Shown in pieces: positions 23,885 to 58,616 of a stretch of 64,000 nucleotides of DNA (position 1 is the first letter of the stretch; the number at the start of each line of letters is the position of its first letter). The stretch lies in contig JAUMZP010000001.1 of the NCBI GenBank assembly GCA_030528025.1, positions 62,001 through 126,000 of the forward strand, read 5' to 3'. The notes beneath the pieces were generated by a model that had not been told where the DNA came from, searched no databases, and saw only the letters and a program-made list of their open reading frames with translations. Origin of the DNA: Candidatus Saccharimonadota bacterium (lineage in GTDB: Bacteria > Patescibacteriota > Saccharimonadia > Saccharimonadales > Saccharimonadaceae). Position numbers and translations under genes: made by a program.

Positions 23885-24035
23885 AATTGTTTATCCACAT
23901 TTGTTCGCGAGTTATCCACACTTTAACAGAGGTACTGTATTTTTGTGGAAAAACTTCACCCCTGTTGCTCTTCTTGTACTCGACCCGTTGTTGTATTTCT
24001 CACGGTTGTGGAAAAGTCGGTTTTTTCTTATACTA
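23885..24035 (+). other. oriC: oriC part 1: DnaA-box cluster and dnaA promoter
   Basis: Two perfect DnaA boxes TTATCCACA at 23891-23899 and 23912-23920. Two reverse boxes TGTGGAAAA (one mismatch each) lie at 23944-23952 and 24007-24015. TATACT at 24029-24034 is a likely dnaA -10, so initiator binding could also autoregulate dnaA. Confidence 0.85.
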
Positions 24036-24076
24036 AAAGGAGTCATTGTATAACAAACAAGGAGCAGCAAAAGCCA

Positions 24077-25459
24077 GTGTACCACAGCCTGTGGAAGAGT
24101 GTTTTGGGTGAGATTGAAGTGTCGATACCAAGCGGTATTTTTTCGACGTGGTTTGCTAATACCGAGATGCTCAGCAACAAAGACGGGGTGATTACCATTG
24201 GCGTAGCGAATATTTTTGCGATTCGCCAGTTTGAGGTGCGCTACGATAGCATTGTCAAAGAAGCGCTGCAGCACAGTGGTATTGAAGTGTCGCGTATCGC
24301 TTATGTGGTAAACAAACACGGCAAAAAACGCACCGTCATTAGCCGCGAAACCACTGGCCAGCCAGCCGATCGCGTCGAGGAGCGAGCAGCAGCACTCATT
24401 AGTAAGCCAACTACTCCTTCACACTCTAGTTCTCCGACACCAGCAACCAGCCTCAACGCGCGCTATACCTTCCAGAATTTCATCGTCGGCTCGAGTAATG
24501 ACCTCGCCTACACCGCCTGCCAAGCAGTCGCACATAGCCCTGGTACGAAGTATAATCCCCTCTTCATCTACGGTGGCGTTGGCCTCGGTAAAACGCACCT
24601 CATCCAAGCGGTGGGCAACGAGATCCTCGCGCGAGACCCAAGCAAAAAGGTCGCCTACCTAAGCTCTGAGACGTTTGTCAAAGAATTTATCGAGTCGATC
24701 CGCTTCAAAAAGGCTGGTTTTTCTGACCGGTACCGCAATGTTGATGTACTGATCGTCGACGATATGCAATTCATTGCCGGGCGTGAGAAGACTCAAGAGG
24801 AGTTCTTTCACACCTTCAATGCCCTCCATCAGGCTAATAAGCAGATTATCATCGGTAGCGACAAACCACCGCACAGCATCCCTACCCTGACGGAGCGCTT
24901 GCGCAGTCGCTTTGAATGGGGGATGGCAATCGATATCCAGATGCCAGACTTTGAGACGCGCTGCGCGATCGTCGAGACCAAAGCGAGCTTCGCTGGCGTG
25001 ACACTTGAGCGTGACACTGTGGAATACCTGGCTAAGAACGTCAAGACAAATATCCGCGAGCTCGAGGGCGCACTTAATCAGCTTCTTGCTTATGCTGAGA
25101 TGCGTGGCGTAGCTCCTGACATAATGACAGCGGAGGGTTTGCTTGGTAACGTCCGGCGCAGTCGCCCCCAGCACCTTACTGCCAAGCAGATTATCGACAA
25201 GACTGCCCGCCACTTTCAGATCGATAGCAAAGAAATCTGTAGTGCTAAGCGGGCTAAGCATATCGTCGTGCCACGACAAATTGCCATGTACTTGCTGCGC
25301 AGCGAGCTCCACATGAGCTTTCCACAAATTGCCAATGAGCTGGGCCGCAAAGACCATACGACCGCCATCCATTCGGTCGAAAAAATCGAAAAATCCATTA
25401 AGCTCGACTACCTCATCCGTGAGCAGGTCGCTGATATCCGGGACAAGCTCTATGCCTAA
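24077..25459 (+). CDS. dnaA: Chromosomal replication initiator DnaA
   Basis: 460 residues from GTG 24077. The frame opens as far back as 23945, but that start lies inside a DnaA box and would add unrelated residues. No in-frame ATG exists near the true N-terminus, and an ATA at 24050 with AAGGAG 8 bases upstream is an odd alternative. Domain I begins SLWKSVLGEIE. The AAA+ domain has Walker A GGVGLGKTH and Walker B VLIVDDMQFI, and the arginine-finger region LTERLRSRFEWG. The C-terminal box-binding helix-turn-helix includes the signature GRKDHTTAIHSVEKI. It melts oriC and loads the helicase. Confidence 0.95.
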   Translation: MYHSLWKSVLGEIEVSIPSGIFSTWFANTEMLSNKDGVITIGVANIFAIRQFEVRYDSIVKEALQHSGIEVSRIAYVVNKHGKKRTVISRETTGQPADRVEERAAALISKPTTPSHSSSPTPATSLNARYTFQNFIVGSSNDLAYTACQAVAHSPGTKYNPLFIYGGVGLGKTHLIQAVGNEILARDPSKKVAYLSSETFVKEFIESIRFKKAGFSDRYRNVDVLIVDDMQFIAGREKTQEEFFHTFNALHQANKQIIIGSDKPPHSIPTLTERLRSRFEWGMAIDIQMPDFETRCAIVETKASFAGVTLERDTVEYLAKNVKTNIRELEGALNQLLAYAEMRGVAPDIMTAEGLLGNVRRSRPQHLTAKQIIDKTARHFQIDSKEICSAKRAKHIVVPRQIAMYLLRSELHMSFPQIANELGRKDHTTAIHSVEKIEKSIKLDYLIREQVADIRDKLYA

Positions 25460-25741
25460 GCCATGTGTTTTTTTCGCAGCATCTGTGGAAAAGCCGTGCA
25501 CAGCTGGTCGTATAACCCGCGGACAGCTCGTGGGTAGTCATCCACAGCATCAAAAGCACACCATACGAAAGCCTTACTGGCTGGTGGATAACCCCTACTT
25601 CTCCCCGATTTATCCACGCCAGCGATCGCAGCGTTTTACACAAGTAGTGGGCAGATCATACCTCTGTTATTCATCATGGTTTCCACAGTATCCACAGCAC
25701 CTATTACTATATCAACCAGATAAAAAGAAAGGATTGTCGAT
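25460..25741 (+). other. oriC: oriC part 2: dnaA-dnaN intergenic DnaA-box cluster
   Basis: Six box-like 9-mers, perfect or with one or two mismatches to TTATCCACA or its complement: 25484-25492, 25538-25546, 25583-25591, 25610-25618, 25679-25687 and 25688-25696. The last two are adjacent. No gene is present. The spacing and density mark this as the main candidate for origin unwinding, together with the cluster before dnaA. Confidence 0.85.
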
Positions 25742-26842
25742 ATGAAACTGTCTGTCACACAAGAAAATCTTACACGAGCACTCGGGGTTGTCGGGCGAGT
25801 TGCGAGCAACCGAGCTGGCCTGCCGATCTTAAATAATATATTATTCCGCACCGAAGGTAATCGCCTTCTTCTCGCTGCGACGAACCTAGAGATTGCCGCC
25901 ACTTACTATATTGGTGCAAAGGTAGAGACACCGGGGGTAATTACCCTGCCGGCTAAACTTGTGAGCGAATTTGTAGCGAATTTGCCGAAGGGGCCGATCG
26001 AGCTTGAGACCAATGGTACGCGTATGACACTAACGTCTGGTGGGTACACCTCGACGATTAATGGCGTAGTAGCAGATGACTTTCCGGAGCTACCGACGAT
26101 TGATGAAGAACAATCAGTACGCTATAGCATTACTGCTACGGACTTCAAGCAGGCAGCAGCGCAAACCTTGGTTACGTGTAGTAATGATACGACTCGGCCT
26201 GTCCTGACTGGTGTGTATTGGCATACAGTGGATGGTGTGCTGTATATGGCGGCGACGGATGGCTATCGCCTGGCTGAGCGGCGTTTGATGGTGAGCCAGA
26301 GTCAGATTGAGGCCATTGTGCCAGCGAGTAGCTTACAGGAGGCGTTGCGTTCGCTCAGTGACGGCACGGAAGAAGTGGAGGTGCTCTTTGATGAGACGCA
26401 GGTGCGCTTTCGGTTAGAAGAAGTGGAGATTACCAGCCGCCTAATCGATGGTACCTACCCAAATTATCGGCAACTCATCCCTGCTCAGTCCGAGACAAAT
26501 GTGACGCTGGCAGCGGGCAATTTCTCGCGCGTAGTAAAGGTGGCAGGGCTCTTTGCGCGTGAGTCTGGCGGCAGTGTCACACTCACCGCCGACCATAATG
26601 CGCAGAAATTGCGGATCCACTCTGTTGCATCTGAGCTGGGCGAAAATACCTCCGAAGCGGAAGCTGAGGTGTCGAGTGATGGGCAGATCACGCTCAATTC
26701 GCGGTACATTAGTGATGCACTAGGTGTTCTCGATGGCGAGACGATCACCTTCCGCTTTAGTGGCAAGCTCTCGCCTTGCGTCTTGACAATCGCTCAGCCC
26801 GAGCCAAACTATATTCATATTATTATGCCACTGAAGAGCTAG
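25742..26842 (+). CDS. dnaN: DNA polymerase III beta subunit (sliding clamp)
   Basis: 366 residues, the usual length for the three-domain clamp. It opens MKLSVTQENLTRALGVVGRVA, with LPILNNILF in domain I, RPVLTGVYWHTVDGVLYMAATDGYRLAERR in domain II and an ending PNYIHIIMPLKS. The C-terminal IMPLKS variant of the usual IMPMR is noticeable. A ribosome site AAAGGA lies 8 bases before the ATG. It forms the ring that tethers the replicase to DNA. recF starts two bases after its stop. Confidence 0.96.
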   Translation: MKLSVTQENLTRALGVVGRVASNRAGLPILNNILFRTEGNRLLLAATNLEIAATYYIGAKVETPGVITLPAKLVSEFVANLPKGPIELETNGTRMTLTSGGYTSTINGVVADDFPELPTIDEEQSVRYSITATDFKQAAAQTLVTCSNDTTRPVLTGVYWHTVDGVLYMAATDGYRLAERRLMVSQSQIEAIVPASSLQEALRSLSDGTEEVEVLFDETQVRFRLEEVEITSRLIDGTYPNYRQLIPAQSETNVTLAAGNFSRVVKVAGLFARESGGSVTLTADHNAQKLRIHSVASELGENTSEAEAEVSSDGQITLNSRYISDALGVLDGETITFRFSGKLSPCVLTIAQPEPNYIHIIMPLKS

Positions 26843-26844
26843 CG

Positions 26845-27843
26845 ATGAAGATAACGCGGCTAGCAGTGCAGCATGTGCGGATTCATACGCTCAAGACACT
26901 TAACCTTGAACCGGGAACGACGCTGATTTCTGGCCCAAATGGCTCTGGCAAAACATCGCTCATTGAGGCAATTCATATTGCGCTGCGTGGTACTTCCTTT
27001 CGCGGTAGTGATGAAGCAGTCTGCCAGCATGAACAAAAAAGTTATACAATTGATCTCGCGACGGATGAGCAGCATTACCGCGTCCAGTACGATCGTCGAT
27101 ATGAGACGAAGCGCAAGCGTTTTATTGTCGACGGTACAACCTATGGTCGCCTTCCTTATGGTAAAAAATATCCAATTGTTCTCTTCGAGCCAGATACATT
27201 GCGGATTATCACTGGCTCGCCGCAGCGCCGGCGTGATTTTCTCGATACACTCATCCAGCAATATGATGCACACTATAGCCATGAGCTGAGCCGCTACCAC
27301 CGAGCACTGCAACAGCGAAATAAACTACTGAAAGACCCTGCTCTTAGCGATGCGGCACTTTTCTCGTGGAATCTTATTTTGAGTCAGTATGGTGCGTCGA
27401 TCATTACTAAGCGTCAGCGTGTGCTGCGTTATCTTAATGCAAAAAGTAGTGCTACATACCAAAGTATTGCGGGCGTGGCGGATAGCATCGCGCTACTCTA
27501 CTCAGAGGAGCGCAGCGTGACCGCGCAGCAGCTTCTCGCTGAGTATGAGCAAAAAACAGCATATGATACAGCGGTCGGCGCGACGAGCGTTGGTCCGCAC
27601 CGGCATGATATAACCGTGCTGTTTCGAGGTAATCCGGCTGCCAAGACTGCATCGCGGGGTGAAATTCGCACCATTGTGCTTGCTCTTAAATTTCTTGAGG
27701 CGGTCTACATCCAGCAGCAAACAGGCCAAGCACCACTTATCCTGCTCGACGATGTCTTTGGTGAGCTCGACCAGCAACGCCAGCAGCGTCTCCTTAGCGA
27801 GTTCGTCGATAACCAGATTGTGATGACGAGTGCAGTGGGATAG
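26845..27843 (+). CDS. recF: DNA replication and repair protein RecF
   Basis: 332 residues from ATG 26845 (MKITRLAVQHVRIHTLKTL), a little shorter than the usual 360-370. Walker A GPNGSGKTSLIEAI (about 30-43), the signature region ASRGEIRTIVLALKFLEAVYI and Walker B PLILLDDVFGELDQQRQQRL are all present. RecF binds gapped DNA and helps RecR/RecO load RecA. It is separated from dnaN by only two bases. Its stop lies ten bases from the stop of a convergent gene, with no terminator between. Confidence 0.94.
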   Translation: MKITRLAVQHVRIHTLKTLNLEPGTTLISGPNGSGKTSLIEAIHIALRGTSFRGSDEAVCQHEQKSYTIDLATDEQHYRVQYDRRYETKRKRFIVDGTTYGRLPYGKKYPIVLFEPDTLRIITGSPQRRRDFLDTLIQQYDAHYSHELSRYHRALQQRNKLLKDPALSDAALFSWNLILSQYGASIITKRQRVLRYLNAKSSATYQSIAGVADSIALLYSEERSVTAQQLLAEYEQKTAYDTAVGATSVGPHRHDITVLFRGNPAAKTASRGEIRTIVLALKFLEAVYIQQQTGQAPLILLDDVFGELDQQRQQRLLSEFVDNQIVMTSAVG

Positions 27844-27853
27844 GTTTTTCACC

Positions 27854-28582
27854 TTATATATCAGTGTACATATAACACCACGATGGGTTGTTGCCGCCAC
27901 ACGGGACAACACGCTTCTTTTCTAGTTCCTCGGCAGTGGGATATATTTTGCCATTGATTTTTATGTCGTATTTATCAATATCTTTATCGTGTTTTTTAAG
28001 ATAGCTCAGTGCTTGGTCGACCTGTGATTGACTTAACTTGTCTGTTGTAACAATACATACACCAAGCCGATTTGATCGGTCGGTCGTGCGGTATGGGTTG
28101 CAGGTAACAATATAAAACCAACGAGAATAGTAAGGTAGTTTATTAATAAGAGGGCTCTCTTGAGATATCTTTGCTCCTCCTTGCGTTGCTTCGTGGCCGC
28201 CGATTGCTTCGCGGATGTCGTTGTATTTTTCCCTCTTCGCTTCCCTCTTTGCTTCCTCAGTTAGCGGCTTCATGGCAAAGAATAGCTTCTTTTCTTCGCC
28301 TTGTTTGAGGCCTAGCTTGACCTGGTGGTCGGCAAAGCCTTTAGCTCGGAATGTGTATGTGTACGACCCACTCTTCACGGCGTGCTTTGCCCGCGTTGTT
28401 ATCTTTTGGTCTTTGATTGTGCCATACGAGACAGTGAGGTTATCGGGGATGGCATAGACGAGGATAGTGCTGTCGTATTTGAGATTATCAACAAAGCGAT
28501 ATACCGTAAAGGCAATCATGCCAACGGCAAGCAGGGAAAATAGTGCGATAATTTGGTTACGTTTTTGATTGAGCATTTCCAT
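27854..28582 (-). CDS. Single-pass membrane protein of the secretion locus, PEGA-like domain
   Basis: 242 residues. One N-terminal transmembrane helix (about 10-30) leaves the bulk outside. Residues about 40-105 look like a PEGA-type beta domain (DNLTVSYGTIKD, GSYTYTFRAKGFADHQVKL). The C-terminal part has paired cysteines (VTCNPY, GVCIVTT, and VPCGG with SWCYMYT), suggesting disulfides. It overlaps the upstream hydrolase gene by 26 bases and has AGGA before the ATG, so it is the last gene of the secretion operon. I do not recognise a named family. Confidence 0.72.
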   Translation of the reverse strand: MEMLNQKRNQIIALFSLLAVGMIAFTVYRFVDNLKYDSTILVYAIPDNLTVSYGTIKDQKITTRAKHAVKSGSYTYTFRAKGFADHQVKLGLKQGEEKKLFFAMKPLTEEAKREAKREKYNDIREAIGGHEATQGGAKISQESPLINKLPYYSRWFYIVTCNPYRTTDRSNRLGVCIVTTDKLSQSQVDQALSYLKKHDKDIDKYDIKINGKIYPTAEELEKKRVVPCGGNNPSWCYMYTDI

Positions 28583-29936
28583 TGACTGTCCTCGCTAATA
28601 CAACACCCGAGTTTCCAAGCATCCACTCGATTGTTCCTTGTTTGATATAAGATGGGACGTGTTGGTATTGGGAAGCTTGTGCACCAACAAACCCGTTACC
28701 AAGATCACCTAAGTAAAATAGTGTATGGCCATTAAAGACCAAAATATCACCAGGCTGTAGGTCACTCATACTCGGAGATTCTTTGGTGTAGTATTTCTCG
28801 GGATGGCTAAGGACGTAAGGTCGCTGATTAACCGTCCCAGATGGTGGGTAATTTGGATCTGCCCCACTCATGCGCATCACCGTTGAAATGTATTTGCCGC
28901 AGTCTGTGTAGTCACCACCCGCTTCTGGATTATACTGCTGGCGAGCATTTCGGTACTCTTCTTTTTCACCACCATTACCGACTCGACGTCCATCCTCCCA
29001 GGCAAGACTCTTGGCTGTTTCGACGATTGATCCACCAGCAGCACTCTTGCTACCGTTTGCGGTGCAGCCTGTGGCTGACGCATTTTGGGTGTTGGCGCCA
29101 TTATTATTACCACCTTCGACTTGGATTTGGGATGAAGGTGGAGATAGGTTCTCTTCCTTGACAATTCGCTCGATCTTGTCAATGTATTCGGTGACAGTCG
29201 AGACATACTGGCTATCGGTGGCATAGCCAGCATTTTTGATCTCTTGGAGATATTTCCGTGGGTCGCCGGGGTATTTGAGGGCTTCGCTATAGCGTGAGTT
29301 GCTAGTAATGAACTCGCCATAGCCAAGCCAGCCAGCTTCGACGGTGGGGTATTTGCGAAAGCCATCAACGATTGTTGTCCGACCAGAGGAGTACTCTTCC
29401 TCAGTCTCCATATCGATCACCTCGCCCGACCAGTTCCCGCCAGCCTTGATACCGTGGAAGTTATTTGCTTTGACGGTAAGTCCAGATTTGCCATAGCCAG
29501 ACTCAATAACTCCCTGGGCGAGGACTGTTTCGTATGGTGTGCCGTATTTTTTGTTCGTTTCGACAGCCATCTTGACATATTTGCGGACGAAGTCTTTGAG
29601 GTCTTCTGCTCCAGTAGCGCTACTGCCATCGCTACTGCTGGTGCTGCTGGTAGAGCAGGTTGCTGCGTCGGGGTCGAAATGCTCGATATTGTTGCCAGAA
29701 AAAAACCTTGCATCTAGAGCCGAAGCAGGAGTTGATATGAGAGAGAACACTATTGCAAAAACAAGAGAACTTATTCGATAAATAGTGGTGCAGCGAGAAA
29801 AGAGTGTTGTCGATGGCGAAAAAAGAGACAGAAAGCTAAGTAATCGTTGGCTGATGTGTATTTGGCAGCGAGTGATAAAAATACAAAGAGAATAGAAACA
29901 CTGGGCAAAAACTACATAAGCCAACCGCATGATCAT
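28557..29936 (-). CDS. Secreted two-domain wall hydrolase: glucosaminidase + NlpC/P60-like
   Basis: 459 residues from ATG 29936, which overlaps the previous stop as ATGA; an in-frame ATG at 29930 is also possible. An N-terminal hydrophobic region with a signal-like segment ends STPASA. Residues about 110-260 are a FlgJ/LytG-type glucosaminidase (PF01832) with the catalytic Glu in AQGVIESGYGKS (E145). After an N/S/G-rich linker, residues about 305-440 look like a papain-fold NlpC/P60 or CHAP domain, with TDCGKYI (C346) and GHTLFYLG (H404). It can be expected to cut both glycan and peptide. It probably takes the role of the VirB1 lytic enzyme in the secretion machine. Confidence 0.85.
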   Translation of the reverse strand: MIMRLAYVVFAQCFYSLCIFITRCQIHISQRLLSFLSLFSPSTTLFSRCTTIYRISSLVFAIVFSLISTPASALDARFFSGNNIEHFDPDAATCSTSSTSSSDGSSATGAEDLKDFVRKYVKMAVETNKKYGTPYETVLAQGVIESGYGKSGLTVKANNFHGIKAGGNWSGEVIDMETEEEYSSGRTTIVDGFRKYPTVEAGWLGYGEFITSNSRYSEALKYPGDPRKYLQEIKNAGYATDSQYVSTVTEYIDKIERIVKEENLSPPSSQIQVEGGNNNGANTQNASATGCTANGSKSAAGGSIVETAKSLAWEDGRRVGNGGEKEEYRNARQQYNPEAGGDYTDCGKYISTVMRMSGADPNYPPSGTVNQRPYVLSHPEKYYTKESPSMSDLQPGDILVFNGHTLFYLGDLGNGFVGAQASQYQHVPSYIKQGTIEWMLGNSGVVLARTVNGNAQSKT

Positions 29937-32866
29937 GATGACCCCCCAACACGTCGAGCATACTCCCAGTGCCACGCCTCTGGTTTGCTACCATTTGGTT
30001 CTGCCCATTCGGGATGGACATAGCCATACTTATGAGCGTTAGCTTTGAGCCAATTGTAGGTAGAAGAACCAAAGTCTCCCACGCTAATATCTGCAGCAAG
30101 CCCCCAGCCGTGGTTGGAGCTACACGGCGGCGCTGGCTTGGCTAAACCACCTTGGTAGAGTGGATCACCTGGTGTTGCATATGCGATTTGCCGTTGGCAG
30201 TCTCGGTATGCCTCGTTAATACCAAAATCGGAACCAGTTTCTGCTTTGTATGCTTTGTTCATTTCTTCCATAGCAGCGGCGGCTTGCTTGTGCATCCTCT
30301 CGCCGGACGAAAATGACAGAGCTACCAAGTCACCTTCTGCTAGCTCGCCGTTTTTAAGGCCATTCCATGTTGATATAGAATCGCCACCTTCTGCAGCAGG
30401 CTGAGCTTGGTTGAATTCTGGCTCACCGACTGCCGGGCCGCTGGGGGTGCTACTGCTAGATTGGCTTGCACCACCTCCGCCAGAGATTGGTTCATTGTCC
30501 ATAGTGTCGACGACGCGTTGATCGATTGTGAAGAGTGCCGCATTGACTTTTTCTTCAGAGTCAAACTTGCAATAATCAGTATCGACACCGTTCTCGCCAT
30601 CAGTACCCTTACCGCACTTCTCTTGCCATTCTTTGAGCGTGCCACCCGTTGCCTCACCTGTTTCTTCATTGTATTGCCCAGTAAGAGATTGGGCGACGTC
30701 GTCAGGATCTTTATCAAGATTGAGTGCACCATATGATATATTACAGAATGGCCCAGCAGCGACGTCTTTGGGGATGTTTGGGTCATCGCACGCTTGCCAA
30801 ATCTTTTTCATACGATCTGTTTCGGTGTTGGCGCTCACTTTGTTGCCAAAGAGGGCCGGTACGATATTCTTAGGGAGAGACACAAGATTATAAACAAAGC
30901 TACTAAGATTAGAAAAGCTGCCCATATAGGGAATGAATGAACTGTAGAGACTTCCCATAAAGGTATACGGCGACGTTGCGTCAAATGGGCTCCGCTCAAC
31001 GCGTTGCTCGGCGGCATAGGCAAGGTTGAGACGAGCTGTTTCTCGTTCGTAGGCAATTGTTTGGTCAACATTGAGCATACCATTACCGCCCGCCGCTGCT
31101 GCTTCGGAGAACATATTTACTGCACCGCTCGTTAGGGCGTCTCCAGCATCCTCGCCAACAGTAGCGCTGCTCACTAGGGTGCCTGCCATAGAATTTATGA
31201 GCTTACTGAGAATTGGCGCAAACACAGCAGAAATAACAGGAGCAGCTAAGTTTGAGACCAACTCACCGACGACACTTGTCCATCCGCCGACGACACTCAT
31301 GAGAAGCTGTCCACCGGTGCTATTAATGAGCTTACAGGATGTCTTCAGCGCGCTAATGTTAGCACCAAGGGCATTAGCAACGCCACTCATCTTCCGGGCC
31401 CAGCCACCACCAGGGACATATTCCGTCCAGTTGGAGGTGTCAGTTGGGGCTATTTCTTTCATGAGTCCATATTTAAGACCCATTCCGTCGGTTGCGGCTT
31501 TTTTGGTTACGTTGCCAGATTTGTTGACGAGTACGGTAGTCAGAATCGTCCCAAGCACAGCAACAGCCATATAATCTGTCGAGCCAGCCTTAATATTATC
31601 GGCCATCGTAAAGAACATCATAGCATAGCTAATGACTTGCGTCATTTGAATGAGGCGAATTGTCTTGCTGATAGATTGGGCACCATCTTGCACCATACAG
31701 AGGCCACCAGCAATCATGGCGATGATATTACCAGTTTTGCCGACACCGTTTTTGATAATATTGGCTGCTGCTTCCTTACTAACAGACTTTGTTGCCCCTT
31801 CGGCTCCTTCGTTCACCGCTTCTTTAGCGGCTTTGCCAACATCGGTGTCTTCAGTAATCTTTTCTTTGCCTTCATCGTCATTTTCCTTGGCCTCGTATTT
31901 GCCTTTCATTTCTTGGCCTTTGGTATTTTTGTCGATGTTTTCGCGGACTTCTTTCTCGCTTTTGGCACCAGCGAGCTTGTTTTTCTTGGTAAGAGAGAAT
32001 TTTTTTATAACGCCATTGTTAAATACTTTATCGAAGAAAGCCACCCAACGTGGTGCATATGCGCGGTGCATAATTGCTCTGAACTCGGGCTTTTCATAAT
32101 ATAACTTTTTGAAATCTTTGGCGCTAATTGTCTCCTGAGTGCCGTTAGGATAGGTGACACGTAGATTTTCAATTTTTTCACCAATTGTGGATTTTTTTAG
32201 ATCAAACTCGTCGGAAGCTTTAACGACATTACCTTCTTTATCGAGGGCTTCAACGTTATTTTTTTCGAACTGTTTCAGCAGCCGATTCGAGACGCGATTA
32301 TAGCGGCATCGTACATTCACAACCGAACAAATGCCATCAGTTGCGGTGTTTTGAATGCGCTTAAACAGCACCTTATTAGCACGCCGCTCGAAGCTGGTAT
32401 TTTGTGAGTTCCAGTGGTTGGTGAGATTTTCTTTGATATGAAGCAAAAGTAGGCTCGGCCCACCAAAAAATGAGAGCATTGAGCCACCACCAAGCAAAAT
32501 AGCGCCAAGGATGCCCATTGGCCCGCCCTTCTTAGAGAAGATAGCACTCCGCGCCTTAGCAAAGCGAGATTTGGGCTCAGAGGGTTTACTGTCTGGTGGA
32601 ACTACCTTATTGAACCAGTTGTTATCGCTCCAGTTGCTTCCTGGCGCGCCCTCCTGGCCTCGGACGGAGTTGGCGTAGTCGCTGCTGCCAGCGTTGCTGC
32701 GTGACGATGAGCCACTCCCGCTATTCTCGCGAGATTGGAGGTCTTGGGCGGTGTTGGATTGGCTATAATCACCTCGGCCAGCGAAGGTATCGTTGCTCCA
32801 GTGCGTATTCCCCGGATTATGCCGGTCGAGGTCGGGTTTTTGCTGGGAGGGGACGGGGGTAGGCAT
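29933..32866 (-). CDS. Polytopic secretion-locus protein fused to an M15 (VanY) D,D-carboxypeptidase
   Basis: 977 residues. The first 90 are Q/N/S/G-rich. A membrane segment lies at about 112-135, a charged K/E-rich stretch at about 300-350, then several hydrophobic segments at about 370-600. The last 130 residues carry a VanY/M15 peptidase: S917-N-H919-x6-D926 (SNHGWGLAAD) and E963-x2-H966 (EAWHWEY), the zinc ligands and catalytic Glu. M15 enzymes trim D-Ala or cut peptide cross-links. The membrane part is reminiscent of TrbL/VirB6-like channel proteins. The order VirB4, this gene, hydrolase suggests a channel protein that carries its own wall-opening enzyme. Confidence 0.8.
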   Translation of the reverse strand: MPTPVPSQQKPDLDRHNPGNTHWSNDTFAGRGDYSQSNTAQDLQSRENSGSGSSSRSNAGSSDYANSVRGQEGAPGSNWSDNNWFNKVVPPDSKPSEPKSRFAKARSAIFSKKGGPMGILGAILLGGGSMLSFFGGPSLLLLHIKENLTNHWNSQNTSFERRANKVLFKRIQNTATDGICSVVNVRCRYNRVSNRLLKQFEKNNVEALDKEGNVVKASDEFDLKKSTIGEKIENLRVTYPNGTQETISAKDFKKLYYEKPEFRAIMHRAYAPRWVAFFDKVFNNGVIKKFSLTKKNKLAGAKSEKEVRENIDKNTKGQEMKGKYEAKENDDEGKEKITEDTDVGKAAKEAVNEGAEGATKSVSKEAAANIIKNGVGKTGNIIAMIAGGLCMVQDGAQSISKTIRLIQMTQVISYAMMFFTMADNIKAGSTDYMAVAVLGTILTTVLVNKSGNVTKKAATDGMGLKYGLMKEIAPTDTSNWTEYVPGGGWARKMSGVANALGANISALKTSCKLINSTGGQLLMSVVGGWTSVVGELVSNLAAPVISAVFAPILSKLINSMAGTLVSSATVGEDAGDALTSGAVNMFSEAAAAGGNGMLNVDQTIAYERETARLNLAYAAEQRVERSPFDATSPYTFMGSLYSSFIPYMGSFSNLSSFVYNLVSLPKNIVPALFGNKVSANTETDRMKKIWQACDDPNIPKDVAAGPFCNISYGALNLDKDPDDVAQSLTGQYNEETGEATGGTLKEWQEKCGKGTDGENGVDTDYCKFDSEEKVNAALFTIDQRVVDTMDNEPISGGGGASQSSSSTPSGPAVGEPEFNQAQPAAEGGDSISTWNGLKNGELAEGDLVALSFSSGERMHKQAAAAMEEMNKAYKAETGSDFGINEAYRDCQRQIAYATPGDPLYQGGLAKPAPPCSSNHGWGLAADISVGDFGSSTYNWLKANAHKYGYVHPEWAEPNGSKPEAWHWEYARRVGGSS

Positions 32867-32872
32867 AATGAA

Positions 32873-34708
32873 CTACGACCTCACTGGCTGCTGGTATAAG
32901 CTGTTATTGGCCACCGGGTTAGTGGTGATGAATTGCGTCTCGGTCTCGCTGGCGAAGATGCGGATATGGACATGGTTTTGCCCAGCAAAGAAGAGTCCAT
33001 CGCCCACAGGGAAGTTAGACAGGCGCTTACGCTCCTCCTCGGTGAGCTTGAAGACCTCTGCCAGCACATCTACTGCACTGGTCGATTGCTTGAGCAAAAG
33101 CTGGAGTGAGCTGTTTGCTACAATAGCTCGGCCCTTCTCGCTCCCCATAAAGTCCTCTACGTCCTGCGTGATGGTTGTCAGACCAAGAGAGTACTTACGA
33201 GCTCGCTTGGCTAGGCTATGGAGAAACTCTGCTGAGTCTTCGTACTTCATCAGCTGCCAGGCCTCATCGACGATCAGCATCCGTCTGCGCTGTACGGTGC
33301 GAGCGATATTCCAGATGTGGCTCAGCACAATATACATTGCTACTGGCCGCAGGTCGTCCTCGAGGTCGCGGATGTTAAACACCACCATGCTGTTATTAAT
33401 ATCAACATTACTTTGCTGGCTAAAGATACCAGCAAAGGTGCCTGTGGTGTATTTGCGCAGGCGCTGGGCTAGTGACGGCCCTGCTCCACCCATATGGAGA
33501 AGGGTGTCATAGAGGTCGATGATCGTCGGTGGCTGAGAATTATGTGTTAGTGGGTCGCTGGTAATACCAGCTCGAGCGTAGGTATCAATGAGTGCTTGGT
33601 CGAGATCGGCCTCTTCAGCTGGGCTGAGCAAGGCAATCTGTTGCCCACCTACCAACGTGCCACCCAACATGAGCTTGAAGAGCCGCTGCAGGGTGATGAG
33701 ATTAGCGCGCAGGGCGTCGGTTGCTTCGTCGCTGTCGATTACTCGGGGGAGGTCGAAGGGGTTAATTCGCGTATCGCTACTGAGGCTGAGGCGAATATAA
33801 CTGCCGCCGACTGCATCGGCTAGTTTCTGATACTCATTCTCAGGGTCGATAACAAGGATGTCGGTGCCAAGCATCATACTGCGCAGCGCCTCGAGCTTAA
33901 CGGTGAAGGATTTACCAGCACCGGACTTTGCAAAGACGACCATATTTGCATTCTCAAGGCTAAAGCGGTCGAAAATGACCAGCCCTTGGTTGTGCTGGTT
34001 GACACCATAGAGAATACCCTCGCCGTCACTAAGGTCGGCACTGGTAAAGGGAAAGCTCGTGCTCACCGCGCCAGTGTTCATGTTGCGGCGGACTTGCAGC
34101 TGGTCGGTCATTTGGGGGATGGTACTATTGAGGCCTTGCTCTTGCTGGTTGCTGGCGGTCTTACTGTAGACCATATTCTGGCCAAAGACCGTCTCGATGA
34201 CGTGCTGGATGAAGCTCAATTCCTCGAGGCTATCGGCATAAAGCGTGACGTAGAGTCCAAAGCGGAAGAAGCGTTCGGCCCCAAGCTGTAGCTGGTCGCG
34301 CAGCTCCTCGGCATCAGCCAGAGCAGCTTCGCGGGCTGGGTCACGCACCTTACCCTTTTCGGAGTTAAGCGCCATATCGGCCTCAAGCTGCGTCACCTTC
34401 TTGCGGAGGTTGTTGAGGACGATTTCTGTCTCGACAGGGTAAATAAACATGCTAATATCGAGCACTTGGTCGATGTTGATTAATCCTGACAGCCAGCCTG
34501 TGTAGAGCTCACGTGGGTAGCCATAGATGTAGAGTGTGCGGCCATACTTGGTACCGATGCGGAAGTATGTGCTGTGAATCTCGAGACTGCTGGGAGCGAT
34601 TAAGTCGCGCAGCGTCGTCATCCCCTTGATAAAGGCTTCTTCTACCTCTGCTTGCTCGCGCTCGCGCTGCTGGGCAGCAATGTCGATTGGATCGGGTCGT
34701 CGTGCCAT
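32873..34708 (-). CDS. virB4: VirB4/TraC-type conjugative ATPase
   Basis: 611 residues. Walker A is FAKSGAGKSFTVK (about 259-271), with LVIDPENEYQKLADAVGG following. Walker B is RRMLIVDEAWQLMK (near 475-490), with a C-terminal ITQDVEDFMGS motif. These match the VirB4 family that energises type IV secretion and pilus assembly on the inner face of the membrane. The N-terminal half before Walker A is shorter than in classical VirB4, and the preceding TraC-like gene probably supplies related sequence. It overlaps that gene by one base (TAATG at 34708). Confidence 0.93.
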   Translation of the reverse strand: MARRPDPIDIAAQQREREQAEVEEAFIKGMTTLRDLIAPSSLEIHSTYFRIGTKYGRTLYIYGYPRELYTGWLSGLINIDQVLDISMFIYPVETEIVLNNLRKKVTQLEADMALNSEKGKVRDPAREAALADAEELRDQLQLGAERFFRFGLYVTLYADSLEELSFIQHVIETVFGQNMVYSKTASNQQEQGLNSTIPQMTDQLQVRRNMNTGAVSTSFPFTSADLSDGEGILYGVNQHNQGLVIFDRFSLENANMVVFAKSGAGKSFTVKLEALRSMMLGTDILVIDPENEYQKLADAVGGSYIRLSLSSDTRINPFDLPRVIDSDEATDALRANLITLQRLFKLMLGGTLVGGQQIALLSPAEEADLDQALIDTYARAGITSDPLTHNSQPPTIIDLYDTLLHMGGAGPSLAQRLRKYTTGTFAGIFSQQSNVDINNSMVVFNIRDLEDDLRPVAMYIVLSHIWNIARTVQRRRMLIVDEAWQLMKYEDSAEFLHSLAKRARKYSLGLTTITQDVEDFMGSEKGRAIVANSSLQLLLKQSTSAVDVLAEVFKLTEEERKRLSNFPVGDGLFFAGQNHVHIRIFASETETQFITTNPVANNSLYQQPVRS

Positions 34709-35667
34709 TAAAAATCTCCTTTGTGATATGCTGTCGAGGTTGGGACGGCTCCCTCGCCTTTGCGGACGAAGGTGGAAGTCACGTTATTAAAGTCGCCCAG
34801 CGGCTCGCGCACTGCCGTGTCGGGGTTATACATGTTGTAATAGAGAGTGCCGAGCTCCTTAGTCTTGAGCTGGACTGCCCGCACACCAATCTGCATCAAG
34901 CCGTTGAGGATGGTGTCAGCCCGGTTGCGGATCTCCTCGCGAGCTCGCTCGTAGGTTTCTTTGCTGATCTTCGTCACAGTGTTGGTGTTCTTGGGGGCGA
35001 AGAGCTTGGTGAAGAACCCTTTACCCTGGTCGATAATCGTCCCCTCCCCTGCTGGGTAATACGGGATGACGACGTAGAAGCTCTTGTCCATGATATTGGC
35101 GTTTTGCGAGAGGTCGTCGATGAAGTTGATATAGTCCTCCATTAGCACGCTCAATAGCATGTTGTCCTGGGTGCGCTGGATGGCAACGAGCTTATCCAAA
35201 TACGGGCCAATATCCACTCGCTGCGAGCGAATACAGATCTGCACCGGGAAGTACAGTGCATTGAGAAAGTTCTGGTAGCTATACTCTACCCCCTCGCGCT
35301 CACGAGCGCTCATCAGGTCGAAGTTAATCGACTCACAGGCGATGACGGCGCGAAAGCTACCATCACCCATGATAATCATATCATCACGCAGTTCCGAGAG
35401 GAGGAGGCTATTCTGAGTTGTAGCGGGCTTGGGTGGAGCCTTTTTCTTGGTGTCTTGGGTGGGCTGGTCATTCATGCCGCCCTGCACAGCTGGTGGCTGA
35501 GCCGGTGCTTGCACTGCGGGGTAATTACTCTGCGGTGGAGCGGGATACTGCGGATAATTAGCTGGTACCTGGCCCGCTGGCGCAGCGCCCTGGCCTTGAC
35601 TATAGCCAAACTGGCTGGGTGGCCCAGCTGGTGGTTGTTGATTGTTGGGTGAATTTGGTGACACCAC
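34708..35667 (-). CDS. TraC-like secretion protein with Pro/Gln-rich N-terminus
   Basis: 319 residues. The first 85 are P/Q/N/A-rich and probably disordered. From about residue 86 the sequence LLLSELRDDMIIMGDGSFRAVIACESINFDLMS, followed by YSYQNFLNALYFPVQICIRSQRVD, matches the small TraC-like domain that precedes VirB4 in Gram-positive and Patescibacteria loci. No Walker motif is present. It probably works with VirB4 as its N-terminal partner. The gene sits between PrgI and VirB4 with 15- and 1-base junctions. Confidence 0.83.
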   Translation of the reverse strand: MVSPNSPNNQQPPAGPPSQFGYSQGQGAAPAGQVPANYPQYPAPPQSNYPAVQAPAQPPAVQGGMNDQPTQDTKKKAPPKPATTQNSLLLSELRDDMIIMGDGSFRAVIACESINFDLMSAREREGVEYSYQNFLNALYFPVQICIRSQRVDIGPYLDKLVAIQRTQDNMLLSVLMEDYINFIDDLSQNANIMDKSFYVVIPYYPAGEGTIIDQGKGFFTKLFAPKNTNTVTKISKETYERAREEIRNRADTILNGLMQIGVRAVQLKTKELGTLYYNMYNPDTAVREPLGDFNNVTSTFVRKGEGAVPTSTAYHKGDF

Positions 35668-35682
35668 TCTCCTTCTTATTTC

Positions 35683-37533
35683 TTAGCGCAAAGGGATGAC
35701 AATCTCATCATCGTCATCATCCTGACTGGCCTGCTCTTGATGTTGAATCCGGTTGGCTTCATTGGCAATGGCAGCAACGGACAAATCAGAGTTGCTGGCT
35801 AGTCTAATTATATCAGGCGAGACGGTGTTTGTGCTAGTGTTTGGCGGTATATTGTTGCGTTGCTGGGTAAGCTGCTCCTCACGCAGGCGTTCCTCGCGGG
35901 TGGGGGTCGTTTTGGCGTAATAACTGGGGTCGAGCGGCTGGATAACCGACTGGTGAATACTGGGGTATGGGTTGTAGCGCACGGCCATATCGATAACATT
36001 TTTATCATCAGCCAGTGCCGAGCGATCCCGGTAGGATACTGCGGCTGGGGTGGGTGCAGGAGTCGGCGTAGGCTGAGCTGGCGCGACAGGTGGTTGCTGA
36101 GGAGGATATGGTGTAGGTGCGTGTGGGTAATTGGGAGTTTGCGCTGCTTGAGTGGGTTGCTCTGCAGGTGCTGGAGTGAATGATGGCTGAGTGTTGGCAG
36201 GAGGTGGTGCTTCAGCTGATGGGTAGCTAGGTGTAGTTGTAGTGCGTGCAGCGGACTTTTGGGGTGGCACAAGCGGCACGGCATCAGTAGTAGGAGCAGC
36301 GTGTTGGCGAAGGTTGGCATAGATTGCTTCAAAGGATGGTGCTTCTTCTGGCTTGGGCTCTGGCGCAGCTTCTGCTGTAGGTTCAGGTGGTGTATAGGGC
36401 TTGCTCAGGGCATCGGGCAAGACCGAATCGTGTGGAATAACGGCGGGCAGTGCCATTGGCAGAGACTGGAGTGAGTCACGCTCTCGCGGCATAGGCTGTG
36501 GCTCGGCAGCAGGTGTTTCGTCATGCGGCATGTTACCCACTGGTGAAATCTCGTATACCTCGGTAGATTGCTGAGGTGGGTATGGGTTTGGTTGGTTTTG
36601 GTAAGCGCTAGTGTCGGGTGAAGGAGCTTGCTGATGTGACGATGAAGTACGATTCTCCGGGAAGCTCGTGGACGAATACGACACTGCCGGGGGCTGAGGC
36701 TCTGGTGCTGAGTATGGTGGCTCAGGCATACGAGGCTGAGGTGGCGATACTGGCGCAAAGCCAGCATCACCAACTGGTGGCTGATATGGTGGTGTAGCCT
36801 GTGGTGGGGTGTTTGGAGTTGCTTGTGGCGCTGTGTGGTATAGCTGCTGCTGAGCTTGAGCTTGTGGCCATGCCGGCTGATACGGCACGGGAGCTTGCTG
36901 GAGCAGTTGCCCGTCAGCTACAGCGGGCAGTGCGGCTGGTGGAGCTTGCATGCGCTCGATGGCTGCTCGGCGCCGGGCTTGATTGGATTGCTCGATGCGC
37001 TGCGTCATCGCTCGCGCCTCGCTGCTGTTGTCATCAAACATATCCGAGGTCTGCTGCGCCTCGAAATAGACGTCACTAATCATCGAACCCTGTGCATCGG
37101 GCACGTGGGTGTGACGAATGGACCAGCCATGAGTATCGGCCAGTTGCGACAGATACGCTAGGCGACGCTCGGCTTCATCTTGGCTGAGATTTTTCGTCCG
37201 CTCAATCTCTACCTTCTCGGGTACCGTAATCTCGATCAACGAGTTGATACCATCAGGCTGCCACATGCGCCGGCGTGGCTTGGTGTAGAACGACACCACC
37301 GCCGCGAGGTAAACCTCCATTGGCTGATCCTTACGCAGTGGCAAGGCTAATGCACCAAACAGCAGAATAATCGGCACTGGAATGACCGCCAGTGGCAAAA
37401 ACACCTGTGATAATCCCCACGCCAACGCAATCCCTGTCACCGCAACCAGCAGATAAATAAACTGGCGAAAGCTAAACGGCCCAAGAATCTTATCCTCTGC
37501 CTCTACGTCCTGTGCAACCTTATATCTCGACAT
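35683..37533 (-). CDS. PrgI-family protein with a very long Pro/Gln-rich tail
   Basis: 616 residues. The first 125 are a PrgI domain: KVAQDVEAEDKILGPFSFRQFIYLL with two transmembrane helices (about 24-66) and YTKPRRRMW. PrgI is a small membrane component of Gram-positive conjugation systems and usually ends soon after this. Here about 400 further residues are P/Q/A/Y-rich with repeated PPQ, PAP and TPPE patterns. The last 90 are again more regular, with an acidic DDDDDE near the C-terminus. The tail looks disordered and could span the wall or bind the neighbouring Pro-rich TraC-like protein. TATAAT (37547-37552, minus) lies 13 bases before the ATG. Confidence 0.82.
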   Translation of the reverse strand: MSRYKVAQDVEAEDKILGPFSFRQFIYLLVAVTGIALAWGLSQVFLPLAVIPVPIILLFGALALPLRKDQPMEVYLAAVVSFYTKPRRRMWQPDGINSLIEITVPEKVEIERTKNLSQDEAERRLAYLSQLADTHGWSIRHTHVPDAQGSMISDVYFEAQQTSDMFDDNSSEARAMTQRIEQSNQARRRAAIERMQAPPAALPAVADGQLLQQAPVPYQPAWPQAQAQQQLYHTAPQATPNTPPQATPPYQPPVGDAGFAPVSPPQPRMPEPPYSAPEPQPPAVSYSSTSFPENRTSSSHQQAPSPDTSAYQNQPNPYPPQQSTEVYEISPVGNMPHDETPAAEPQPMPRERDSLQSLPMALPAVIPHDSVLPDALSKPYTPPEPTAEAAPEPKPEEAPSFEAIYANLRQHAAPTTDAVPLVPPQKSAARTTTTPSYPSAEAPPPANTQPSFTPAPAEQPTQAAQTPNYPHAPTPYPPQQPPVAPAQPTPTPAPTPAAVSYRDRSALADDKNVIDMAVRYNPYPSIHQSVIQPLDPSYYAKTTPTREERLREEQLTQQRNNIPPNTSTNTVSPDIIRLASNSDLSVAAIANEANRIQHQEQASQDDDDDEIVIPLR

Positions 37534-37577
37534 AGTTTATGTATCTATTATAGCATGAGGGAATAGATAAGACTTTA

Positions 37578-40337
37578 CTAGTCTCGTTTTGCATTATCGC
37601 TCATAACGCGAAAGTGCTTAGTCGGGTCTTGGCTCCACTCTCTAGCTCTAGATGCACGTCGATAGATCGCCTCATTACTCTGCATTTTTGCGTTGTAGAG
37701 TTGAGATTGTAGTGCTGCGTCAATTGCTAGGCCAGTAGCTTGCCTTGCCTCCATAAGCTGATCTTCGCTGATGCCACTAATACTGTCACTATTAAGAACT
37801 TCCATCATGTCCTTGAAGGCTGGCTCGTCCATATCGGCCATCTTGGGTGCGTTGTATTTCCCACCTAGAGCGCCTTCCACAACAGCTTGTTCATAATTAA
37901 ATTTGCCCGCGCGTAACTGGTCTGCGGCTTTCCCGGTCCACCATGGGTTCTTGGCAGCGGCAGGAGATCGCGAGAGCGCGTCAGCGACAACTGCACGATC
38001 GCCAGAACCTAGATTATCATTAACGTGTTTTGATAGTGCACGTAGCTGATTTGAGTTAGCATTTTTGGCAGCATCTGTAACAATGTATCGCCTGTCGAAA
38101 GCAGAAAAACTCTTGGCATCTATGACATCTCCTTTCTCTATACTGCCGTCTTTATTCTTTTTGTAACCTTGAATTTTTCCACCCATTGCAAGAGTAAAGA
38201 TGTCATTACGTGAAAGAGCCTGTTCCTTTCCGTCCTTATCTAGATATCGGTAATTTTCGAAGAATGACTCTGAGAGTTTCATCTCCTCCTCGGCTTGTTG
38301 GTCGACAAGGCGCGATGCATAGTTTTGGGCGCGACGCACTGATCTACCAGCTGATCCCGGAAGTTTACGAGCATGCTTATTAATTCCTCGCATAGCTCCG
38401 CTTTGTAACCTCCTAACAGGATTCCAACCCTTATATGTACCAGCTTGAGTTTGCGCGTGTGCTAATTCTTTAGCGCGTTCTCGTTCTGCCATAAATCGCC
38501 CGTAGACAGATTTATCTAGCCCAGACTGTAACTTCTTCTCAGTAGCTTTGCCAGCCAAGTTGCCCCACTTATCAGCAATATTTGCTAGCCCCATCATTGA
38601 AGTCATGAGGCTTGTTAAGCGAGAAACTAAGAGGAGTGGTGTAAAAGTAAGGGCAGCAGCAATGATCTGTAATAGGACTTCTGAGTCACCCTTCATGCCA
38701 TTAATGACTGTTGCCCCCAGATTGCATGCACCATAGAGTAAACCAATTGCTGGATAGAGAAAGAGGAGTGTCTTGAAGAAGCCCCACCACTTCTTAAACA
38801 ACCCTTCGGTACTTGGTAATAGTAGTGCTACAAAAGCAAGCGGCGATAGAATAATAGTAAAGATAACCAACGCTTGCCGTGCGCCAAGAAGGAATACTGT
38901 AACAGTTGCAGTAACAACGACAAAAACAAGGCCAGAAATAAGAGAACCTAACACAAAGAAAGCTGTAGCAGTACCTAGAATAGTAGCAGCAGCACCCGTC
39001 CACCAGTTTCCTTTCGTTGCCCAGCCACCTTCTGGGCCGCTCCCGCCACCACCAAGTGAAGTAATGAAATTGAATGACGATGACCCAATAATATTAGAGA
39101 TATCAACAAGAATACTACATATATAGAAAGATATATTGACGAGGATAATAGTCATAAGAAGCTTAGGTAGAAGCTTCTTAATGCCGTAGTTGCTAATACC
39201 AAGACCACTAACCTGTGAGTAGATGATTATTAAGAAAACAATAATAAAGACAATATTGGCAATGTCTCGAATGCGCGACCAATAGTAGAATGCAGAATCG
39301 GGGCCACGATCTGTGAGTATGATGGAATTGACTTCAAGCAACTTTACCAAAATATCTGCAGAATCGTCTGAGATATCGGCAAGGAGATTAACAACGGGGC
39401 AGATGAACCAGCCAACACCATCTATAGCGCAGCGTGATTTGGATTCTTCTTCCTTATCTTCACTACCACCAGCTGTTTGAGCAGGCTGTTCGCCTGTTCC
39501 AGCATCGGCGTTGCCACCTGTGTTGGCTTTATTTTTCTCAGCTTCTTTAACTGCAGCCTGTGCTTGTTCTGTAACTTTTTTTGATTTATCTATACAAGTT
39601 TGTTTATCTTCTTCATCTTTAGTACCGCCACGATCTCTCTGTACCTTCTTGTTGGGGCCTTTATATTTCGCTATAACTTGCTGTACTGTATCGTTATTGC
39701 CATCTTTTCCAATTTTGCTATAAGATATGTAGCCATCTGCGGCTTTATCGGCAAGCGTAGTTTGCGAGCTATTAAACTCTGTTCGATTTTTCTCGTCCGT
39801 AACAGAGCATGTACTAACAAAGTCGCTGTAGTAATATGAATATAATTCACCTGGTGATAAATAACTAGAAGGATCATCGCCTTGTATACCGAGCTTTTTG
39901 CGAATTGCTCTATTTGCTCCTGCTTGCCTACCGTTGGTCGGCTCCCATTGGTTTTTGCCATCATTTTTTTTGTATTCAGCTGCGGTCAGAAAATCCTCAG
40001 CACTTGAAAAACCCCACTTGGGTATGCCTTCGTTATAAATATCTGTACAAGACATCTTCTTGTTTTGGACTGTGCGCTCACGGCTAAATCCGGAGCCCCC
40101 AAGAGAGTTACCTGAAACATCCTTATAACTAATTTTGTCAATTCCATCAAAACATCCTGGATCGGTACTATTACTATCTCCATCCTGACCTATATATAAA
40201 ATCCACGCTCGGACCTTATCATCATGTGTATCAGCATGCGCCTTTTGGTCTATAAACACGCTAGAACTAAGTACAAGAATAATAGCTAATGGAAAGAGTG
40301 AAAAGCGTTTCAGCTTAGATATAAGAGAGTTAGTCAT
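37578..40337 (-). CDS. Multi-spanning secretion channel protein (TrbL/VirB6-like)
   Basis: 919 residues. A signal peptide ends at about residue 35 (KAHADTHDD). A Cys-containing extracellular domain (about 36-300) follows. About six to eight helices lie at about 350-600 (RDIANIVFIIVFLIIIYSQVSG, KKLLPKLLMTIILVNISFYI, ARQALVIFTIILSPLAFVALLLP). A highly charged cytoplasmic C-terminus (about 610-919) follows. The helix pattern and position upstream of PrgI/VirB4 match the VirB6/TrbL-like proteins of Patescibacteria secretion loci. TATTAT (40347-40352, minus) lies 9 bases before the ATG. The extracellular domain is unfamiliar. Confidence 0.8.
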   Translation of the reverse strand: MTNSLISKLKRFSLFPLAIILVLSSSVFIDQKAHADTHDDKVRAWILYIGQDGDSNSTDPGCFDGIDKISYKDVSGNSLGGSGFSRERTVQNKKMSCTDIYNEGIPKWGFSSAEDFLTAAEYKKNDGKNQWEPTNGRQAGANRAIRKKLGIQGDDPSSYLSPGELYSYYYSDFVSTCSVTDEKNRTEFNSSQTTLADKAADGYISYSKIGKDGNNDTVQQVIAKYKGPNKKVQRDRGGTKDEEDKQTCIDKSKKVTEQAQAAVKEAEKNKANTGGNADAGTGEQPAQTAGGSEDKEEESKSRCAIDGVGWFICPVVNLLADISDDSADILVKLLEVNSIILTDRGPDSAFYYWSRIRDIANIVFIIVFLIIIYSQVSGLGISNYGIKKLLPKLLMTIILVNISFYICSILVDISNIIGSSSFNFITSLGGGGSGPEGGWATKGNWWTGAAATILGTATAFFVLGSLISGLVFVVVTATVTVFLLGARQALVIFTIILSPLAFVALLLPSTEGLFKKWWGFFKTLLFLYPAIGLLYGACNLGATVINGMKGDSEVLLQIIAAALTFTPLLLVSRLTSLMTSMMGLANIADKWGNLAGKATEKKLQSGLDKSVYGRFMAERERAKELAHAQTQAGTYKGWNPVRRLQSGAMRGINKHARKLPGSAGRSVRRAQNYASRLVDQQAEEEMKLSESFFENYRYLDKDGKEQALSRNDIFTLAMGGKIQGYKKNKDGSIEKGDVIDAKSFSAFDRRYIVTDAAKNANSNQLRALSKHVNDNLGSGDRAVVADALSRSPAAAKNPWWTGKAADQLRAGKFNYEQAVVEGALGGKYNAPKMADMDEPAFKDMMEVLNSDSISGISEDQLMEARQATGLAIDAALQSQLYNAKMQSNEAIYRRASRAREWSQDPTKHFRVMSDNAKRD

Positions 40338-41567: not shown

Positions 41568-42004
41568 AAGCTTCAATCCTCCCCAATACAGGATTAGTGG
41601 TTATGTGTGCTATTATTATGCGCACTTGCGTTTCATGCTACCATTGTTTGCGTGGCAGGTCAAATAATTTTTGGCCTCTGTTAAGGAAAATGAACGGCGA
41701 ATACGCACAGAGGTTGGCATAGAAATATGTTCGAACGATATTTTTTGGTAAAAAATGAGAGATATTTTATATATATTGCATAATGGATGAAATATGATGG
41801 CTCGGATGTGATAAGTTAGCCCTCATCTATGCAGATATGATGATGCTCCCGTCCCTATTATTAAAAAATATAGCCACACAGATTCACAATATACCCAATA
41901 AATACTCTGATAAGCTACATAATTTACATTAATAAACTACCACATATCCGAATCACCTATACATATTGCCACCCCACCCTATATCCGCTATAATACAGAG
42001 GTAC
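41568..42004. other. AT-rich intergenic region before tRNA-Ser(GGA)
   Basis: No supported gene. The sequence CTATAATACAG just before 42000 gives a TATAAT promoter for the tRNA. Confidence 0.5.
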
Positions 42005-58187: not shown

Positions 58188-58616
58188 CTAGGTAGTTGAA
58201 GCACCGGTGTTGCTGCTATTGGTCGTCGTGTTGATGTTACCACCAGGGATGATAGTGTTGATGACGAAGTTTACCGCCGCATAGGCTAGCAGCGCCACCA
58301 CAACACCGACCAGAGCGTACATAATAGTATTCTTCGCGCCTTGCACCTGCGATGAATTACCGCCAGAGATGACATAACGAATACCACCGAAGATGATCAT
58401 AATGACCGCGATAGCACCAACGAGGAACAGCATGATGTTGCTTACCCGTGTGAAGATACCGGCGTCACCAAAGAGATCGGCAGGCTGGTCTTTGCCTCGT
58501 GAGCGGCTGGCACCATCTGATACACCGCCGATTGCAGCGCTGGGTGGTGCAGCAGCAATTATCCCACCCCCGATGAGGGCAAGAGCACTGATAGATAGTA
58601 GACATTTTTTTAGCAT
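58188..58616 (-). CDS. T4SS_pilin-family (VirB2/TrbC-like) pilin subunit
   Basis: 142 residues. A signal peptide (about 1-28, ending APPSAA) is followed by a short loop and two hydrophobic helices (about 58-80 and 93-118) with the family pattern IFGGIRYVISGGNSSQVQGAKNTIMYALVGVVVALLAYAAVNFV. A T/N/S-rich tail ends the protein. Such subunits polymerise into conjugative pili or form a membrane pool. AAGGAG lies about 11 bases before the ATG. It stands alone about 17 kb from the VirB4 locus but is the obvious pilin candidate for that machine. Confidence 0.88.
   Translation of the reverse strand: MLKKCLLSISALALIGGGIIAAAPPSAAIGGVSDGASRSRGKDQPADLFGDAGIFTRVSNIMLFLVGAIAVIMIIFGGIRYVISGGNSSQVQGAKNTIMYALVGVVVALLAYAAVNFVINTIIPGGNINTTTNSSNTGASTT

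Follow-up and report, generated by a model that had tools for sequence, protein, structure and literature searches.

The secretion locus described here carries two wall-opening enzymes, one of them fused to a long membrane-anchored protein. It lies in a 64,000-nucleotide stretch of DNA (the window), bases 62001-126000 of contig C9 in a 1.03 Mb, 98.6%-complete Saccharimonadia genome, where it adjoins dnaA-dnaN-recF. The closest named contig for its VirB4 belongs to an uncultured Candidatus Saccharibacteria MAG (96% identity).

A dnaA-linked secretion locus with two wall-enzyme genes

The following features were annotated in window coordinates.

37578..40337, minus strand: VirB6/TrbL-like membrane protein, 919 aa; sub-cut-off PF04610 TrbL matches of orthologues
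35683..37533, minus strand: PrgI (VirB3-like) with a long Pro-rich tail; PF12666, E 5.5e-12
34708..35667, minus strand: TrsD, VirB4 N-terminal-like, 319 aa; NCBIfam TrsD, E 5.9e-5, and VirB4 N-terminus
32873..34708, minus strand: VirB4 ATPase; NCBIfam NF045971 (CD1110-family VirB4), E 8e-114, above cut-off
29933..32866, minus strand: 977-aa body plus VanY/M15 protein; PF02557 at residues 856-970
30482..32569, minus strand: body part, residues 100-795; mostly helical, TM 117-135, conserved Cys
29957..30301, minus strand: VanY/M15 zinc peptidase domain; Pfam VanY, E 1.6e-12; H919, D926, E963, H966
28557..29936, minus strand: secreted glucosaminidase plus papain-like (NlpC/CHAP-type) hydrolase, VirB1-like; PF01832, E 5e-28
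27854..28582, minus strand: 242-aa one-TM protein with a transthyretin/PEGA-like sandwich, third cassette gene; AF2, Foldseek
23945..27843, plus strand: dnaA, dnaN and recF, convergent flank of the cassette; Pfam DnaA; flank kept in nearly all loci
58188..58616, minus strand: T4SS (VirB2-like) pilin; PF18895, E 9e-9

Gene calls with Pfam and NCBIfam confirmed every gene of the preliminary description in its place, order and minus-strand orientation. The 1-4-base overlaps that it reported hold for TrsD/VirB4 (1 base) and M15/glucosaminidase (4 bases, ATGA); the other neighbouring genes are either separated by a gap or overlap by more bases. The locus is a dnaA-linked chromosomal T4SS of Saccharimonadia without a relaxase, comprising VirB6, PrgI/VirB3, TrsD and VirB4, with two wall-enzyme genes downstream of virB4. 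Its clade VirB4 match with PrgI and TrsD neighbours, its VirB2-like pilins and the lack of a relaxase and VirB11 agree with the Patescibacteria-clade MPF-FATA T4SS.

Two gene labels required adjustment. The 319-aa protein first called TraC-like is better named TrsD, a VirB4 N-terminal-like protein, on the basis of weak NCBIfam matches and of a neighbour as in PMC12102498; it is 52-71% identical in relatives. The TrbL/VirB6 label finds no Pfam match in the window protein, which has eight hydrophobic segments by hydropathy, and is favoured by six of nine orthologues that match PF04610 TrbL just under the cut-off (E 1.6e-5 to 7e-3). Upstream of virB6 lies a 381-aa one-TM protein with a Ser/Thr-rich stretch (40431-41576) and no Pfam match.

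Relaxase, VirD4 and VirB11 had all been reported as out of view. Across the genome, three Pfam relaxase families gave no relaxase, and VirB11 is absent, the four T2SSE matches having PilB/PilT-like lengths. A VirD4-like coupling ATPase of 957 aa with TrwB/TraG-D domains was found on a separate contig (C3:167629; L004, G000:C3:166129-169587), far from the T4SS operon. At the locus itself, a relaxase (three families) together with a coupling protein, which would mark a conjugative element, was not found.

Seven T4SS pilin genes were counted in the genome: a single one inside the window and an array of six just beyond it, at G000:C9:129685-132045, ~25-35 kb from virB4. Two other proteins of the window are a 768-aa protein with eight ChW repeats (6497-8803), likely secreted or surface-bound, and an adhesin-like beta-helix protein of 955 aa whose end consists of leucine-rich repeats (59536-62403).

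A conserved three-gene slot downstream of virB4

VirB4 was detected at E<=1e-100 in 353 of the 393 Saccharimonadia genomes sampled. We fetched 120 regions around the slot, nearly all located via VirB4 or the body protein and most from metagenome assemblies; 118 of them contain VirB4. Nearly all loci of the window's family show the order VirB6-PrgI-TrsD-VirB4-body-hydrolase-~210 aa-recF-dnaN-dnaA. The same three-gene slot is found at class level: past virB4, the 118 loci usually continue with a protein of 750-1600 aa, then a hydrolase of 400-750 aa, a one-TM protein of ~210 aa and a reversed recF. Thus the genes stay together across class relatives, as the preliminary description had proposed to check. 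A pair of wall-enzyme genes occurs in nearly all relatives and is normal for this T4SS, contrary to the earlier statement that such systems normally have one lytic enzyme.

In some members of one large genus (L129-L132, L134, L136, L145) virB4 is followed by a gene other than the body gene and recF is distant; the cassette is seemingly elsewhere or lost.

The body protein defines a class-specific family

An iterative profile of the N-terminal body found a family gene downstream of virB4 in 103/118 loci, with E values down to 1e-236 and, in other families of the class, of 1e-24 to 1e-97. It had zero matches outside Saccharimonadia among the phylum genomes sampled. The body has no Pfam family, none of 47 members matches TrbL, and searches gave no PDB fold match and no structural match in a viral library at E<=0.001. 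The N-terminal body makes up a class-specific family with no relatives in Pfam or PDB.

The 977-residue protein had been described as polytopic and channel-like. Hydropathy gives one clear TM segment (117-135) and two marginal ones, which leaves little of the first term, and the second is unsupported by any structural match in PDB or the viral library. The structure prediction proposed earlier was carried out with AF2: the core of the body has pLDDT mostly >90, and a linker at residues 797-858 is disordered. Positive charge precedes TM1, and the body alignment contains invariant or near-invariant Cys columns. From the charge ahead of the single clear TM, the conserved cysteines and the disordered linker, the C-terminus is predicted to face outside.

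Two identities for the body were considered and rejected. It is not VirB6, since it has no TrbL match (47 members), fold match or polytopic core. A phage tail protein is likewise rejected, because viral matches are lacking at E<=0.001 and only the M15 part aligns, weakly, with phage endolysins. By position in the locus the body resembles Tn916 Orf15.

The second and third cassette genes

The second gene product combines a glycosidase with a papain-like domain and carries a conserved Glu and Cys-His pair, as VirB1-like bifunctional hydrolases do, with a glucosaminidase instead of a lysozyme. Its catalytic Glu, E145 (counted from the ATG at 29936), is >=90% conserved across 92 relatives. The NlpC-like assignment of the other half holds as well: C346 and H404 are >=90% conserved in the same relatives, though this half has no Pfam match in the window. 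Among the 92, CHAP is matched by 12, C39 by 9 and NlpC/P60 by 4. The glycosidase is a phage tail lysozyme in 67/92, and the glucosaminidase of the window represents a minority form (9/92).

The AF2 model of the 242-aa protein (pLDDT 91) contains a TTR/PEGA-like sandwich and a second domain. Foldseek gives TTR-like matches, and orthologues were aligned in relatives. We rejected this protein as the missing VirB8 on account of its TTR/PEGA-like model and the absence of a VirB8-like match among those listed. Its position resembles that of Tn916 Orf13/TcpC.

The C-terminal enzyme is exchanged independently of the body

H919, D926, E963 and H966 were found where the preliminary description had placed them, in an SxHxxGxAxD-type motif and an ExWH motif, and the catalytic residues are kept in homologues. 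What the description did not recognise is that M15 is one among several interchangeable C-termini. Pfam matches on 106 C-termini were M23 (32), VanY (19), Exo_endo_phos (7), M15_4 (2), NlpC/P60 (2), and M14, Amidase_2, CHAP and BSP (1 each). When local profiles, motifs and hand labels were used, the 108 tails comprised 31 M23 (8 with an exo/endonuclease-phosphatase), 20 VanY, 19 unlabelled M15-like and 7 of other types; in 31, no enzyme was recognised. Tails of this last kind, about a quarter of all, include several animal-associated lineages, so that a body does not strictly require a tip.

Some enzyme-less bodies (L073, L081, L083, L120, L127, L128, L133, L246) carry another conserved tail (e.g. 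RNYIV, RSFAA), and at least one of them is from rumen. Bodies of 1200-1600 aa with an endonuclease/exonuclease/phosphatase domain, mostly plus an M23 peptidase, occur in L060, L061, L064, L067, L107, L192 and L208.

Mapped on a VirB4+DnaN tree of 96 tips, enzyme class has undergone at least 41 changes (50-61 with shuffled labels), and at least 26 among the 70 enzyme-bearing tips (31-41 when shuffled). The M15 domains of the window and of TM7 HOT-352 (L225) share 66% identity over 145 aa, and the two bodies are 24% identical. The converse was found in L111/L206, L086/L143 and L071/L103, where bodies are 46-59% identical and enzyme types differ. This double dissociation shows that body and C-terminal enzyme shuffle independently. 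Two consecutive body genes with different tips were seen in L063, L066 and L119.

Cassette genes are replaced between close genomes

The clearest replacement is between G004 (L047) and G059 (L058). These genomes have DnaN 99%, RecF 97% and VirB4 97% identical, and body and hydrolase 31% and 23%; their DNA similarity ends ~100 bases into the body gene and returns just past recF. The body alone differs between L047 and L050, and the hydrolase is replaced between L053 and L141, whose bodies are 65% identical. In the window's genus, L098 and L101 share 98% DnaN identity and essentially no body similarity. Between the window and its nearest relative, G130, VirB4 is 96%, hydrolase 61% and body 24% identical. 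Many close pairs have a body identity of 9-40% beside a VirB4 identity of 90-98%, the values for very divergent protein pairs being those of single BLAST segments.

These comparisons show that replacement between close relatives, within conserved flanks, has affected the body gene, the hydrolase gene or the cassette as a whole; the C-terminal domain has also been replaced on its own. Chimeric assembly is rejected as a source of the swaps: such breaks are found repeatedly, in many genomes, and they lie within single contigs and fall at similar gene borders.

VirB6 was as hypervariable as the body between close genomes (window, L047/L058/L050), mostly outside its membrane core and including its N-terminal part. 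In L047/L058 it is 27% identical (DnaN 99%); PrgI and TrsD are each 90% identical in the same pair.

Discussion

The earlier interpretation stands as to a VirB4/PrgI system with separate glycan- and peptide-cutting enzymes in a conserved order; the channel-like protein, the lone-enzyme norm and the missing VirD4 do not. The data suggest that a conserved motor (PrgI, TrsD, VirB4) carries a wall-opening tip that is exchanged rapidly and is probably fitted to the walls of hosts. The slowly changing motor is followed by a cassette of three genes. The first encodes a membrane-anchored body whose C-terminal enzyme is exchangeable, the second a secreted protein that joins a glycosidase to a papain-like hydrolase, and the third a TTR/PEGA-like protein with one TM. 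Given its predicted topology, the body would hold the enzyme outside the cell via the flexible linker. Together, the enzymes could cut glycan, peptide and D-Ala ends and so make a path that lets a channel or pilus pass the wall of the cell itself and, most likely, that of its host too. Replacement of the peptide-cutting tip, with a glycosidase of mostly the same type, may track the variable peptide chemistry of host walls. We tentatively extend this to a possible role in host range: recombination, perhaps via natural competence, might exchange wall-cutting tips to match host peptidoglycan, making the slot a host-range determinant of Saccharibacteria.

An unlikely account is ordinary VirB1-like remodelling, in which the enzymes serve T4SS assembly by opening only the wall of the epibiont itself, and tips turn over near-neutrally among equivalent hydrolases. 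Such hydrolases occur in Gram-positive conjugation systems, VirB1 is given this role in PMC12102498, and several tips (M15, M23) cut the same bond class. Yet neutral turnover poorly explains bodies so divergent beside a nearly identical VirB4, a VirB6 that diverges in parallel, or the exo/endonuclease-phosphatase tips, which are not wall enzymes. The variation of VirB6 and body, both predicted to be surface-exposed, beside an invariant motor would also follow if diversification were driven by phages or predators that attack exposed parts of the T4SS, and not by host fit. This appears improbable, as attack alone leaves enzyme-class replacement and independent domain exchange unexplained.

Polymorphic toxins are marked by C-termini that shuffle behind a conserved N-terminus, and both a nuclease/phosphatase-like tip and a VirD4-like ATPase exist; the body might then be cargo or a surface toxin carrier whose C-terminal domain acts against host or competitors. 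We give this little credence: the tips are mostly wall peptidases, and the body is usually single-copy at a fixed place in the T4SS operon. The genes next to it belong to conserved families (small ORFs were covered superficially), with no immunity gene seen to alternate with tip type and a constant TTR/PEGA-like family as the third gene. Comparably doubtful is the channel for DNA uptake or conjugation suggested in the preliminary description. Homology to conjugative T4SSs and the same ATPase favour it, and DNA uptake was proposed in PMC11665869, but relaxase (three families) and VirB11 were not found in the genome, and in S. epibionticum the coupling protein is non-essential and the T4SS essential (PMC12102498).

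The tip slot bears on two open questions, the determinants of Saccharibacteria host range and the role of the T4SS. A conserved motor with a rapidly replaced outer enzyme offers a biochemically readable handle, as tip types can be set against the wall chemistry of hosts, and tip enzymes can be made and tried on purified walls. The hypervariable slot also points to host-facing parts.

Comparison with known systems

The T4SS itself is known in this class: near dnaA, with PrgI/TrsD/VirB4/VirB6 and pilins and without relaxase (PMC10633639, PMC12102498). Together with "peptidase and lysozyme homologues" after virB4 it is essential in S. epibionticum (PMC12102498, PMC10633639), and its function has been called "completely unknown" (PMC11665869). 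The system of Southlakia epibionticum ML1 (SEML1_0006-0019) and the Patescibacteria-clade MPF-FATA T4SS resemble the window in VirB6, PrgI, TrsD and VirB4, in peptidase and lysozyme homologues past virB4, in pilins, in lacking a relaxase and in their place near dnaA. They differ in that the window has a glucosaminidase replacing the lysozyme and pilins that lie apart.

Exchangeable C-termini, a class-wide body family and cassette swapping were not found in the main texts of PMC10633639 and PMC12102498, nor was domain exchange of the body protein in a targeted search of open-access literature. The class-specific body family, its exchangeable C-terminal enzyme and cassette swapping are thus apparently new.

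The second gene resembles pIP501 TraG, TrsG and CD419, VirB1-like two-domain hydrolases (glycosidase plus papain-like) of Gram-positive conjugation, to which Tn916 Orf14 and pCF10 PrgK also belong. Unlike these systems, the window has the glucosaminidase variant, and its body protein carries another hydrolase. A conserved carrier with an exchangeable C-terminal enzyme recalls polymorphic toxins and phage tail-tip lysins, and the tail-lysozyme family PF18013 occurs in the partner gene; phage phi29 gp13, a tail-tip lysin, combines a lysozyme with M23. Here, in contrast, the carrier belongs to a chromosomal T4SS operon with no immunity gene seen, and the body finds no structural match among viral proteins. 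VirB6 proteins extended by large hydrophilic domains (PMC12857230) are likewise long T4SS membrane components with an extra C-terminal domain, whereas the body has no VirB6/TrbL similarity, a separate VirB6 is present and the tip is an enzyme.
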